Of a DNA stretch of 28,685 nt, positions 13,713 to 17,623 are shown in pieces. The stretch is from a virus. The DNA lies in the IMG/VR virus record IMGVR_UViG_3300028581_000184, positions 1 through 28,685 of that record, one strand, 5' to 3'. Each line of letters starts with the position of its first letter. The stretch's first letter is position 1. The notes under the pieces were generated by a model that made no database searches, was not told where the DNA came from, and saw nothing but the letters and a program-made list of their open reading frames with translations. Position numbers and translations under genes: made by a program.

Positions 13713-13723
13713 TTTTAATTTTA

Positions 13724-13790
13724 TGCCTGTAAATATTGGCTTATTTGCAGGCTGCAAAACATCAAATACTATTATTTGATAGAATTTAAT
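13724..13790 (+). ncRNA. Structured element B, copy 1
   Basis: Stem GCCTG (13725-13729) / CAGGC (13748-13752) with an 18-nt loop, an 8-nt linker ending CAAAAC, an 8-bp hairpin ATCAAATA-CTAT-TATTTGAT (13761-13780), then AGAATTTAA. A second copy at 14353 has the same lengths and a compensatory base change in the first stem. It lies just upstream of the 54-aa membrane protein gene. Confidence 0.6.
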
Positions 13791-13819
13791 AACAATTAAT
13801 CAATTTAAAAATTACAATC

Positions 13820-14020: not shown

Positions 14021-14347
14021 ATGAAATTACAAACCTCAAAAAAAACTATTAAAAACGGTTTTAATACTGTTATTTCAATTGGATATTGCAACGCACAATA
14101 TCTTTTATATTATAAAATACCTTTTGCTTATTCAGCTGGAAATTATGGCTGGTCGTGTGATTATTATCAAATAGGTGCAAAATGTATTTGTACCGGTTAC
14201 AGTCCTTTCGGTATTCAGCCGGATTACAAGTTATTGAATGATTTGGAAAATCAAGCAAACAGCATTGCACATAATAATCGGTATACATACGATGATAAGG
14301 TCAAATTAATTGATTTATTGCTTATTGAGTTATTAAACTCAATTTAA
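14021..14347 (+). CDS. Hypothetical phage protein with YYKIPFAYSAGNYGW motif
   Basis: 108 residues. The core segment YYKIPFAYSAGNYGWSCDYY followed by CTGYSPFG looks like a conserved small domain of Bacteroidota phage proteins. It is followed by a helical C-terminus (YDDKVKLIDLLLIELLNSI). Three cysteines lie close together (about residues 45-56). It lies between leader motif A copy 2 and element B copy 2, so its translation is probably under RNA control. Biochemical function unknown. Confidence 0.55.
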   Translation: MKLQTSKKTIKNGFNTVISIGYCNAQYLLYYKIPFAYSAGNYGWSCDYYQIGAKCICTGYSPFGIQPDYKLLNDLENQANSIAHNNRYTYDDKVKLIDLLLIELLNSI

Positions 14348-14352
14348 ATCTA

Positions 14353-14419
14353 TGCCGGTGTACATTGAACCGTTATCCGGCTACAAAACATCAAATAATA
14401 GTATTTGATAGAATTTAAA
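14353..14419 (+). ncRNA. Structured element B, copy 2
   Basis: Stem GCCGG (14354-14358) / CCGGC (14377-14381) with an 18-nt loop, an 8-nt linker ending CAAAAC, an 8-bp hairpin ATCAAATA-ATAG-TATTTGAT (14390-14409), then AGAATTTAA. Compared with copy 1 the fourth pair changes from T-A to G-C and the tetraloop is reversed. Lengths are the same, supporting a conserved RNA fold. It precedes the 191-aa gene. Confidence 0.6.
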
Positions 14420-14431
14420 AAATCAAAATAA

Positions 14432-15007
14432 ATGAAAACAATTAGTAAAAAGCAGTTTGAAAATGCAGTACAAAAGGTTTTATCAGACGGTAAAAGCATT
14501 TTTGTAGTAAGTGAAAAAAAATGTCCTTTATATTGGGCACGTTCTAAAGGCTATTGCAACTTACGTGGTTCAATCCCACAATATAGTAAGTATTTGGGGA
14601 ATATTGGTAGAGGTGGAAAAGAATCTGAGCAATATTTAGTCTGTTCACTTGCGCCTGGTTATGTTATTTCAGAGACTAAATCTGAAGCAAAAAAAAGAAT
14701 ATCAGACGAAAAAATAGCTTTTGAGGTTAAAAAAAACAAGTCAAAAGGAAAATACAGCGAAAAAAAACAAGCTGAAATTTTAGAGTCGCAAATGCATGGG
14801 ATTTCAGTTAAAGAATTGAGGTCAAAAAAAATAGAATTGAAAGGCATAAATGAAAAATTATATGAACAGTATTTGCAAAAGGAAAATGCTATTATATCAG
14901 AATTTAATTTTCAACTATTTAAAATAGTTGATAAGGTAAAATTAGCAAGGGTTATATATGAGCGTGGAATTAAAATCGGAACTAAATCATTAAAAGAAAT
15001 ATTATGA
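14432..15007 (+). CDS. Hypothetical protein, charged and helical
   Basis: 191 residues. The N-terminal half contains ISKKQFENAVQKVLSDGKSI followed by a GIGRGGKESEQYLV-like segment. From about residue 85 it is strongly lysine/glutamate-rich and probably a long helix. No catalytic motif is evident. The high lysine content fits a nucleic-acid-associated protein, which is only a guess. Its stop overlaps the ATG of the next gene by 4 nt (ATGA). Confidence 0.5.
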   Translation: MKTISKKQFENAVQKVLSDGKSIFVVSEKKCPLYWARSKGYCNLRGSIPQYSKYLGNIGRGGKESEQYLVCSLAPGYVISETKSEAKKRISDEKIAFEVKKNKSKGKYSEKKQAEILESQMHGISVKELRSKKIELKGINEKLYEQYLQKENAIISEFNFQLFKIVDKVKLARVIYERGIKIGTKSLKEIL

Positions 15008-15905: not shown

Positions 15906-16112
15906 ATGAATGAAATTGAAAATCTTATTGAAAATATGGTTGAAAATCATATCTATTCAAAGGTCCTATATATTAAGGACCAACAAAAAAAAGATTTGTT
16001 TTTATTTGATGTATCTCCTTACATTTCAAATAAAAAAGTAAAAATAAAAGAATATCAAAACCATATCAAATTTTATTTAGGGTTTGAAAGTTTAAAAAGA
16101 ATAGGTTTATAA
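15906..16112 (+). CDS. Cassette-region protein 1, hypothetical
   Basis: 68 residues, MNEIENLIENMVENHIYSKV onward. The N-terminal ~20 residues form an acidic amphipathic helix, followed by lysine-rich beta-like sequence (VKIKEYQNHIKFYLGF). There is no known motif. Its stop abuts the first copy of the 68-nt repeated leader. Small size, isolation from known modules and leader-punctuated context suggest an early accessory protein. Confidence 0.5.
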   Translation: MNEIENLIENMVENHIYSKVLYIKDQQKKDLFLFDVSPYISNKKVKIKEYQNHIKFYLGFESLKRIGL

Positions 16113-16179
16113 CCCCTCCAGCAAAAAATTCGATGGGGTGACAGTAAAAAATTTTAATAACAATAAAAAAATAAAACAA
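16112..16179 (+). repeat. 68-nt repeated leader, copy 1
   Basis: Identical to 16792-16859 at 67 of 68 positions. It contains CCCC...GGGG arms around TCCAGCAAAAAATTCGAT, then GACAGTAAAAAATTTT and an A-rich tail running up to the start codon of the next gene. The CCCC/GGGG hairpin and the conserved CCAGCAAAAAA stretch suggest an RNA-level leader, for example translation or stability control. No promoter box is present within it. Confidence 0.75.
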
Positions 16180-16180
16180 A

Positions 16181-16495
16181 ATGAAAACAAATGTAACATT
16201 ACCAACTGGATTTATTTTCGGCGAAAGTTGTTTAATCGGATATAGCTCCGATAAAGAAATGTATGATATATTAAGAAACGGAATTATACAACCTATTTTT
16301 TACATTGAAAATTGCTACAATGATAATCATTATTTTATTATATATGTAGACCCTAAAGATGTTGAAAAGTTAGAAACTGAATTAAATATATTTATTTCGG
16401 AAGATGATTCAGGTTGGTACTTTGTTGAAAGTGATATTCAAAAAGCGTTTGAGTTTAGGCATAAGTATGGTTGGAATTGCGAAGAGCTTAACTGA
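16181..16495 (+). CDS. Cassette-region protein 2, hypothetical, ending in a hammerhead ribozyme
   Basis: 104 residues, MKTNVTLPTGFIFGESCLIG onward, then YFIIYVDPKDVEKLETELNI, an alpha/beta pattern, and an aromatic C-terminus ending WNCEELN. The family is not recognised. The remarkable point is the 3' end: the last codons and the TGA stop are built into stem I and the CTGATGA core of a hammerhead ribozyme. It begins 1 nt after the 68-nt leader. Translation to the end would disrupt ribozyme folding. Confidence 0.55.
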   Translation: MKTNVTLPTGFIFGESCLIGYSSDKEMYDILRNGIIQPIFYIENCYNDNHYFIIYVDPKDVEKLETELNIFISEDDSGWYFVESDIQKAFEFRHKYGWNCEELN

Positions 16496-16540
16496 TGAGA
16501 GTTTTATACTCGAAACGTGCCTAAAAAGCACGTATTAAGC
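16486..16540 (+). ncRNA. Hammerhead ribozyme 1 (type I)
   Basis: All conserved parts are present in order: stem I GCTTAA/TTAAGC, core CTGATGA (16492-16498), stem II GAG-TTTTATA-CTC, GAAA (16512-16515), stem III CGTGC-CTAAAAA-GCACG, and the NUH site GTA. Cleavage is expected between 16534 and 16535. Stem I is the open helix, hence type I. It overlaps the stop codon of the gene at 16181 and separates it from the gene at 16587 on a shared transcript. Confidence 0.9.
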
Positions 16541-16586
16541 AAAATAAATTATTAATCATGGGTAATACCCAGCAAAAAAAAAGATT
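16541..16586 (+). repeat. Post-ribozyme leader, copy 1
   Basis: After the ribozyme the sequence AAATAAATTATTAATC, a small TGGGT-AAT-ACCCA hairpin, and CCCAGCAAAAAAAAAGATTATG lead to the next gene. The same block follows ribozyme 2 at 17478-17525, so ribozyme and leader form one duplicated unit. After cleavage this leader would be the new 5' end of the downstream mRNA. Confidence 0.6.
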
Positions 16587-16772
16587 ATGAATGTAGAATT
16601 AAAAAAAGCTATTGTAAACTATATGTTTGACAATGCAAAGGAATTTCAGTTGAATAATGCTACAACCGAAAAATTTAGACAGTACATTTTTACTCCCGAA
16701 GGTAGTTACTGTATTGGAGGTAACGAAGTAGCAGAGTTTATTCGTATGACAGAAAAAATAGTTAAGTATTAA
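16587..16772 (+). CDS. Cassette-region protein 3, hypothetical
   Basis: 61 residues, MNVELKKAIVNYMFDNAKEF and then FRQYIFTPEGSYCIGGNEVAEFI, ending MTEKIVKY. It looks like a compact helical protein with a central beta turn (PEGSYCIGG). It sits downstream of ribozyme 1 and its leader, with no other ATG that better uses the leader. The stop is followed by CCCAGCAAAAAAAA and the second copy of the 68-nt leader. Function unknown. Confidence 0.5.
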   Translation: MNVELKKAIVNYMFDNAKEFQLNNATTEKFRQYIFTPEGSYCIGGNEVAEFIRMTEKIVKY

Positions 16773-16791
16773 CCCAGCAAAAAAAAACCCC

Positions 16792-16859
16792 ACCCCTCCA
16801 GCAAAAAATTCGATGGGGCGACAGTAAAAAATTTTAATAACAATAAAAAAATAAAACAA
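16792..16859 (+). repeat. 68-nt repeated leader, copy 2
   Basis: Second copy of the leader at 16112-16179, differing only at the base after GGGG. It ends at the ATG of the 187-aa gene. The near-perfect identity in two places of otherwise unrelated coding sequence indicates recent duplication or strong selection on the RNA. Confidence 0.75.
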
Positions 16860-17422
16860 TGAAAATCGAAGAGTTAAACAGTAAATTAACAAGTTTATTC
16901 CACAAAGGAATTAAACTTTATGACCTGAAAAATCAGACAGCAAAAAAGTGGTACGATCAGGAATATCAGTTGTATAGTAACAGTGAGTTTCAAACTGATT
17001 TTATTTATGGTGTGAGTATTGATGGACTTATTATTTTTGACTTCAAAGTTAAGTCAATTGATAATTTATTCAAGTCATTCTATACTCAATTCATTAATAA
17101 GTATATGGTTAAGCAACTATACTTCGATGGTACTGAATATAATAATTATACAAAAGAGACCGCAGCCAAAACAATTGCTTTGTACTTATCAGAGTGCCGA
17201 GTGCACAAAAATTTTATGTATAGTACCCAATACGGAATAGGTATGTGGAATTTATTTATGCCTGAACAACTTCTAAAAACAGCATCTAACAAGCTCGAAA
17301 CGCTATTAAAAAGCAAAGGAATAAAGTTTTATAACGAATATAGCGATGCATGTTGGGTTTATAGATACTTAATTTCAGGGAATTATATCGACCATAACAA
17401 CTTATTGAATGAACTTGAATAG
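16859..17422 (+). CDS. Cassette-region protein 4, hypothetical, ending at a hammerhead ribozyme
   Basis: 187 residues, MKIEELNSKLTSLFHKGIKL onward, with many aromatic and lysine residues and an alpha/beta pattern (GVSIDGLIIFDFKVKSIDNL; YGIGMWNLFMPEQLL). No recognised family. The gene starts at the end of the 68-nt leader copy 2 and its TAG stop overlaps the first base of stem I of ribozyme 2. Like the protein encoded at 16181 it is larger than its downstream neighbour, giving a leader-gene-ribozyme-leader-gene pattern twice over. Confidence 0.55.
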   Translation: MKIEELNSKLTSLFHKGIKLYDLKNQTAKKWYDQEYQLYSNSEFQTDFIYGVSIDGLIIFDFKVKSIDNLFKSFYTQFINKYMVKQLYFDGTEYNNYTKETAAKTIALYLSECRVHKNFMYSTQYGIGMWNLFMPEQLLKTASNKLETLLKSKGIKFYNEYSDACWVYRYLISGNYIDHNNLLNELE

Positions 17423-17477
17423 CTTAACTGATGAGAGTTTTATACTCGAAACGGACTGTAACAAGTCCGTATTAAGC
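17422..17477 (+). ncRNA. Hammerhead ribozyme 2 (type I)
   Basis: Stem I GCTTAA/TTAAGC, core CTGATGA (17428-17434), stem II GAG-TTTTATA-CTC, GAAA (17448-17451), stem III CGGACT-GTAACA-AGTCCG, NUH site GTA with cleavage expected between 17471 and 17472. Core and stem II are identical to ribozyme 1, while stem III differs in sequence but keeps pairing, a compensatory pattern that supports the fold. It begins at the stop codon of the 187-aa gene. Confidence 0.9.
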
Positions 17478-17525
17478 AAATAAATTATTAATCCGGTTAT
17501 ATACCCAGCAAAAAAAAAGATTATG
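17478..17525 (+). repeat. Post-ribozyme leader, copy 2
   Basis: AATAAATTATTAATC, a weaker hairpin (GGT...ACC), then ACCCAGCAAAAAAAAAGATTATG, as after ribozyme 1. It leads only to a six-codon mini-frame (MNKVTQ) at 17523, overlapped by a 27-codon frame. Confidence 0.55.
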
Positions 17526-17539
17526 AACAAAGTAACACA

Positions 17540-17623
17540 ATGAAGACACAATTAGATTACCTCCCAACGTGTGCAGATTATGCAAGATATTTGCAAGTTA
17601 TGCGTCAGTGTAAAAAGAAATAA
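17540..17623 (+). CDS. Possible 27-aa peptide gene at the end of the cassette operon
   Basis: ATG-started frame of 27 codons, MKTQLDYLPTCADYARYLQV ending CKKK. Its ATG overlaps the TGA of the six-codon frame that follows the post-ribozyme leader (ATGA), so re-initiation is possible. It runs 26 nt into the 3' end of the convergent leftward gene. It may be the remnant of a longer fourth cassette protein. Coding status is uncertain. Confidence 0.35.
   Translation: MKTQLDYLPTCADYARYLQVMRQCKKK

Follow-up and report, generated by a model that had tools for sequence, protein, structure and literature searches.

Here, we report that two elements on the + strand of the window, i.e. the whole 28,685-nt stretch of virus record IMGVR_UViG_3300028581_000184, are type I hammerhead ribozymes, since stem I is the open one and stems II and III are closed by loops. 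It is likely that both are active and punctuate a phage operon of small genes; we infer their self-cleavage from the sequence. A preliminary description had reported two complete type I hammerheads lying 936 nt apart on the + strand at gene ends, which is borne out by both sequence and minimum-energy (MFE) folds. The features discussed below are as follows.

16181-16495, + strand: 104-aa ORF, whose UGA stop codon (16493-16495) belongs to the CUGAUGA core of hammerhead 1
16486-16540, + strand: hammerhead 1, type I (sequence; MFE fold; covariance model R2, 59.1 bits, E 4.6e-14)
16486-16491 and 16535-16540, + strand: stem I of hammerhead 1, GCUUAA/UUAAGC, 6 bp, open
16492-16498, 16499-16511 and 16512-16514, + strand: CUGAUGA core, stem-loop II and GAA of hammerhead 1
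16515-16533, + strand: stem III of hammerhead 1, followed by H17 (A16534)
16534/16535, + strand: predicted cleavage site 1 (GUA/U), H17 position
16535-17471, + strand: RNA of 937 nt predicted to be released by both cuts (arithmetic from the cut sites)
16542-16591, + strand: leader copy 1, downstream of cut 1 (repeat search; 88% identical to copy 2)
16587-16772, + strand: 61-aa ORF between the cuts, starting 52 nt after cut 1
16859-17422, + strand: 187-aa ORF between the cuts, UAG stop codon at 17420-17422
17422-17477, + strand: hammerhead 2, type I (sequence; MFE fold; R2, 58.8 bits, E 5.5e-14)
17422-17427 and 17472-17477, + strand: stem I of hammerhead 2
17428-17434, 17435-17447 and 17448-17450, + strand: core, stem-loop II and GAA of hammerhead 2
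17451-17470, + strand: stem III of hammerhead 2, followed by H17 (A17471)
17471/17472, + strand: predicted cleavage site 2, H17 position
17478-17527, + strand: leader copy 2, downstream of cut 2, preceding ORFs of 6 codons (17523) and 27 codons (17540)

In standard numbering, the hammerhead core reads C3U4G5A6N7G8A9 - stem II - G12A13A14 - stem III - U16.1 H17, and cleavage leaves a 2',3'-cyclic phosphate and a 5'-OH end. We take the cut sites to lie at H17 of this numbering; the new 5' ends named in the preliminary description, 16535 and 17472, are the same. The core, all three stems and the GUA/U triplet are intact in both elements, with U16.1 and A17 following stem III in each. Stem I (GCUUAA/UUAAGC) and stem II (GAGU-UUUAU-ACUC) are common to both, whereas stem III reads ACGUGC/GCACGU in copy 1 and ACGGACU/AGUCCGU in copy 2 and pairs in either case, which confirms the earlier statement that core and stems I and II are shared and that stem III differs yet remains paired. 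The cores are 936 nt apart and the predicted cuts 937 nt, the difference being an extra base in stem-loop III of copy 2. The core pattern is present at 2 places in the window, whereas 100 dinucleotide shuffles did not yield it once. For both 65-nt segments, the minimum-energy structure and the centroid structure are the hammerhead (copy 1, -14.7 kcal/mol, z -3.2; copy 2, -18.1 kcal/mol, z -4.0). The same pair is carried by a second public contig, which is 99.88% identical over 7441 nt and matches the 32-nt pattern exactly in either copy; a local assembly error is thus less likely. Only these two copies are present in the 43 kb of that contig.

The preliminary description had suggested a check with Rfam, and this check did not recover the elements. 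Searches with Rfam 15 at E <= 1 (whole window) and at E <= 10 (16400-17560) detected no hammerhead family in either copy; the sole match over copy 2 at E <= 10 was an sRNA family that scored 13.1 bits, at chance level, where its gathering score is 94. On the other hand, the independent covariance model R2, which was trained on 30 non-window copies from other phages, finds both copies with the scores given above, the next-best place in the window reaching 10.9 bits. We read the Rfam miss as low model sensitivity: gathering scores, which are a practical and not a defining criterion for hammerheads, were reached by neither window copy and by 3 of 92 descriptor copies (see below) in 27 loci, the other 89 also being missed at that threshold. 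The Hammerhead_1 model (RF00163) has the same topology and core as the window copies, which fall outside its matches even at E <= 10. Five relatives score 27-36 bits with this model; a 2.5-kb stretch contains five copies, of which two match it at 30 and 27 bits, below its gathering score of 34, and the remaining copies are matched by weaker hammerhead models only. Judged by sequence and model, the window elements are hammerheads of a compact phage subfamily. Most copies in the scanned loci fall below the Rfam cut-offs, so that phage hammerheads are probably more numerous than has been estimated.

Relatives were sought by their core alone in two pattern scans of IMG/VR, the second of which gave at least 120 stretches (together loci L006-L149), and also with a descriptor. 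These searches identified at least 230 distinct relatives on viral contigs besides the two of the window. The raw patterns matched at least 24 and at least 123 distinct places in L006-L149, of which 19 and 116 form stems I and III (at least 5 bp in stem I and at least 3 bp in stem III). Both stems are thus formed by 135 of the 147 distinct raw matches listed, compared with 44 of 7350 when the 3' segments were random, and by 141 of the 153 matches listed when genome loci L150-L157 are added. With the descriptor, at least 277 copies were obtained in the loci, 2 of them from the window and 2 from its near copy, L001, whereas the reversed sequences gave none. The sets used below comprise 238 distinct copies, 232 copies after another de-duplication (the window's 2 and 230 others) and 189 non-redundant copies (222 clustered at 80%, after 10 without flanks had been dropped); L001 was excluded from all three as a near copy, and the window's own copies were included.

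An alignment of 32 sequences was compared with 500 shuffles. All of its 512 cells are paired, as against 67.6% in the shuffles; both sides are changed in 157 cells, as against 43.1; and the covariation score amounts to 0.813, as against 0.161, with no shuffle reaching any of these values. By contrast, 11 of 16 pairs are changed on both sides, a number that 72 of the 500 shuffles also reach and that is therefore not beyond chance. This set was chosen by the descriptor, which requires pairing, and the independent check is the stem count of the raw pattern matches (135 of 147). The loss of core pairing among aligned homologues, which the preliminary description had put forward as evidence against hammerheads, did not occur in this pairing-selected set. 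Among the matches listed, stem I is 6 bp long in 264 of 277 descriptor copies, a 13-nt stem-loop II is present in 186 of 232 copies and an A lies 5' of stem I in 204 of 232. With regard to a possible tertiary contact between stem I and loop II, loop II and the A flanks are conserved across relatives; AACTGATGAG was fixed in the search patterns, which means that the two A's in front of the core were partly selected, whereas the preceding U was not. The A at H17 in the window is a minority choice (26 of the 232 copies, among the matches listed), and its loop II, UUUAU, differs from the commonest form, UNAAU, at the third base; on both grounds the window copies may cut more slowly. The length of stem I in the window copies, only 6 bp, was likewise counted against activity. 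In both window copies, loop II UUUAU is complementary to the 3' flank AUAAA. Watson-Crick pairing between loop II and the 3' flank was rejected as a family feature, with a complementarity of at least 4 in 30 of 185 copies and 37.6 in shuffles.

An indication of a role in mRNA comes from the placement of these ribozymes relative to stop and start codons. In the window, the stop codon of the 104-aa ORF forms part of the core of hammerhead 1, and stem I of hammerhead 2 begins with the G of the UAG stop codon of the 187-aa ORF. Among the matches listed, the upstream stop codon lies inside or touches the ribozyme in 122 of the 189 non-redundant copies and at most 12 nt before it in another 42; that is, it is inside or within about 12 nt in 164 copies. 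The other 25 are exceptions to the rule, with the stop codon farther away (13) or no upstream ORF stop found (12). For 5068 shifted places, the corresponding control values are 15.8% (inside or touching) and 3.4% (at most 12 nt); for the opposite strand, they are 25 and 6 copies out of 189. ORFs were called mechanically, with upstream ORFs counted from 50 codons and downstream ORFs from 30 codons. The stop codon is strictly inside the ribozyme in 98 of 189 copies, mostly as UAA at the end of stem I (44) or as UGA of the core (34), the CUGAUGA core itself containing two UGA codons in one frame. Stop placement thus partly follows from the motif, because UAACUGAUGA holds stops in two frames; what these stops do not explain is that genes reach up to the ribozyme at all.

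An AUG follows the cut in 188 of the 189 copies at a median of 24 nt (10-90% range, 18-72), compared with 63 nt (9-159) at shifted places. The gap between stop and start codons has a median of 71 nt at ribozyme junctions (n=158) and of 5 nt at other junctions of the same loci (n=973), so the ribozyme largely fills the gap. In addition, all copies lie on one strand in each of the 60 multi-copy loci among the matches listed. This positional rule (a stop codon in or beside the ribozyme, a start codon shortly after the cut, and a single strand) supports punctuation of messages, and it makes the hammerhead role testable in phages with arrays.

From 120 of the 144 loci L006-L149, 116 distinct virus records were obtained, which were selected for the motif, so that counts among them are not a prevalence; R2 at E <= 1e-5 matches 114 of them, with at least 2 copies in 71, at least 5 in 15 and a maximum of 13. 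The view in the preliminary description that a duplicated pair is unusual is therefore not upheld, clusters having also been published in 2011 (PMC3088659). Four records have 10 or more copies (10, 11, 12 and 13); they are not independent, as three share match spacings and look closely related. The richest record (39.8 kb) has 14 copies on one strand by model R1 at E <= 0.001. The ORFs next after the copies (202 among the matches listed) are diverse, falling into 151 clusters, and small, with a median length of 86 aa. Among ten larger downstream ORFs, PHROGs identified two RNA polymerases (with the N4-like family among them), one DNA ligase and one MazG; the other six matched unknown PHROGs families only or none. 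The phage RNA polymerase-matching genes, at L115:3476-5860 and L076:301-1860 (the N4-like family being among the matches), are the next ORFs after hammerheads. On this sequence evidence, we suggest that N4-like phages carry this hammerhead subfamily.

One match was also found in a cultured phage of the family Schitoviridae:

L166:3958-4011 (MT234338.1): hammerhead in Agrobacterium phage OLIVR1, one match, 54.2 bits

It lies between gp12 and gp13, 26 nt before gp13 and about 130 nt after gp12, with no annotated feature at that position; this placement runs against the stop-codon rule, and the copy was missed by the descriptor. A short blastn match in Streptomyces phage Rooney was rejected, as no model match was present there. 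With stricter filters, 1 of 295 Bacteroidia genomes matched, namely the seed genome itself, and a pattern scan of genome contigs recovered 8 stretches, among them two from Mucilaginibacter and one each from Daejeonella and Aquimarina. Thus, hammerhead copies in bacterial genomes are rare but not absent. A 5.8-kb contig binned as Aliivibrio (L152) has 6 pattern matches, and the genome has 8 model matches on one contig; it is perhaps a misbinned phage fragment.

Based on these data, we propose that RNA polymerase would produce a polycistronic + strand RNA in which each ribozyme, once transcribed, would fold and cut once, between 16534 and 16535 and between 17471 and 17472. The upstream message would then end 39 or 49 nt past its stop codon in the hairpins of stems II and III with a 2',3'-cyclic phosphate, and the downstream RNA would begin with a 5'-OH and a short leader, so that neighbouring messages could be uncoupled in stability and translation without a nuclease; the effect may be on mRNA stability, on translation or on both. 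Processing into shorter messages fits the strand, the stop codon, the start codon and the copy number. In the early mRNA of phage T7, RNase III sites are cut between genes and a hairpin is left at the upstream 3' end. Those sites need a host protein, whereas here the RNA itself would cut, and the likeness is an analogy only. Should splitting be confirmed, RNA catalysis would do in some phages what host RNase III does in T7.

The splitting of a polycistronic mRNA, as put forward in the preliminary description, stands as a likely role for cut 1 and fits cut 2 less well. Ordinary ORFs lie on both sides of cut 1 only. Cut 2 is followed, at 51, 68 and 108 nt, by ORFs of 6, 27 and 34 codons, respectively, so it is less clearly a gene boundary; it may serve mainly to trim a 3' end. 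A broader proposal is more tentative, and we regard it as possible but rather doubtful: in many phages, an abundant hammerhead subfamily, mostly below the Rfam cut-offs, overlapping or adjoining a stop codon at most copies and reaching 10 or more copies per genome, would split a long transcript into short messages without protein, and cleavage might be timed by translation of the upstream gene, since a ribosome finishing that gene must cover the ribozyme core.

Among other explanations, circularisation is a live rival to message splitting, although a weaker and unlikely one. The pair would excise the 937-nt RNA, whose ends would be joined by a host RtcB or by the ribozyme to give a circular mRNA or a retrozyme-like element. 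Two hammerheads on the same strand with common stems I and II and a repeat downstream of each would suit such a unit, and the cyclic-phosphate and 5'-OH ends are what RtcB needs. RtcB was, however, found in 0 of 30 hammerhead-bearing virus records, the control being found in 9 of 14 genomes; a host enzyme is possible. Copies in other phages precede many different genes (151 of 202, counted as clusters) and can form larger arrays, which speaks against this rival. Plant retrozymes, for their part, propagate through circular RNAs with hammerheads (PMC4918200), and related work likewise has hammerheads releasing unit RNAs (PMC7229834), whereas here the genes between copies differ among phages. For clusters similar to those described here, circular or spliced products were sought and not detected, as stated in PMC3088659.

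It is also unlikely that a duplication left the elements behind as decayed or passive relics whose cleavage is now too slow to be useful. The repeats downstream of both cuts point to local duplication, and A17 and the non-consensus base of loop II could be read as decay; yet all core positions and stem pairs are intact even though stem III differs between the copies, which is the pattern expected from selection for pairing. A role of the copies in the DNA itself is very improbable; they would then be shared linkers aiding recombination of small accessory genes between phages, with cleavage being secondary. The small and diverse genes that follow the copies would agree with this, but only the short core is conserved and the stems vary with pairing kept, which indicates RNA structure and not DNA identity, and both the strand and the distances to stop and start codons are constrained. 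Finally, we give almost no credence to hairpin terminators or plain 3'-end stabilisers that merely resemble hammerheads: stem III is a GC-rich hairpin shortly past a stop codon, but a U-run is absent after both copies, and a terminator would need neither the core and GAA, which are kept in all relatives (by the way in which these were found), nor paired stems far above chance.

The ribozyme class and its clustered arrangement were already known (PMC3088659; PMC6155905; PMC7761336; PMC10085705). Hammerhead clusters flanking phage genes were published in 2011 for prophages of Clostridium scindens, Azorhizobium caulinodans and Agrobacterium tumefaciens; three cluster arrangements cut in vitro, one of them also in E. 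coli, and the splitting of phage transcripts was proposed for prophage clusters (PMC3088659). Such clusters, like those described here, contain the same ribozyme class in several copies that flank single genes or short blocks, and the window pair, two + strand copies around two ORFs in a phage genome, agrees with that definition of a gene-flanking cluster. In contrast to the elements of PMC3088659, those described here are of a compact type I form, with an open stem I of 6 bp, a stem II of mostly 4 bp and a 5-nt loop, and usually overlap or adjoin a stop codon, a phrase that is absent from the main text of that paper. Its data set may nevertheless contain related phage copies. Hammerhead clusters around genes also appear in a review of 2017, which treats the role of hammerheads in prokaryotes as an open question of the field (PMC6155905). 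According to work cited in PMC10085705, bacterial hammerheads are enriched near Mu-like phage genes and other ribozymes, an association with phage genes and a clustering of ribozymes that are also seen here. The HHphage element of haloviruses HF1 and HF2 is a hammerhead of a lytic virus located 13 nt upstream of a start codon; it differs in being a high-salt variant of archaeal viruses and, in the account of PMC3088659, is not described as a member of an array. Searches of the open-licence literature of PubMed Central brought up no mention of stop-codon placement or of arrays of at least 10 copies. What is added here is the positional rule for phage hammerheads relative to stop and start codons.

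The window also encodes terminase, portal and DUF3987 helicase-type genes, and its record is a virus record. The preliminary description had assigned it to a Bacteroidota phage, which was supported weakly: of the 56 phage records in which a similar terminase was found, 53 belong to phages of Phocaeicola, Bacteroides, Parabacteroides or Cellulophaga, but the identity to them is 24-30% (best 30 of the 56 records) and the best single match, among the matches listed, is a Rhodobacteraceae phage. A Bacteroidota host is therefore likely, with weak support. No PHROGs or Pfam family was found for the 104-aa and 187-aa ORFs, and no PHROGs family but a sub-threshold Pfam match for the 61-aa ORF. The 187-aa ORF had no tblastn match at E <= 0.01 among 50,697 phage records, blastn of the 1.7-kb region gave no match in phages, and when viral contigs were searched with the terminase and with the 187-aa protein, only the near-identical contig was returned.

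Several repeats were observed around these genes. A 10-codon ORF (16558-16590), located 23 nt after cut 1, overlaps the start of the 61-aa ORF by ATGA, and translational coupling is possible. The 11-mer CCAGCAAAAAA occurs at window positions 16118, 16569, 16774, 16798 and 17505, always on the + strand and never on the other; each copy lies within about 90 nt before the start of an ORF of the operon, as an unexplained leader motif. A 68-nt repeat (16112-16179 and 16792-16859, 99% identical) precedes the ORFs at 16181 and 16859; it contains a possible CCCC/GGGG hairpin and folds no better than shuffles. Farther upstream, direct repeats of 96 nt (73% identical) are present at window positions 13714-13809 and 14343-14438; one of them contains a 20-mer whose exact reverse complement is found in the other.
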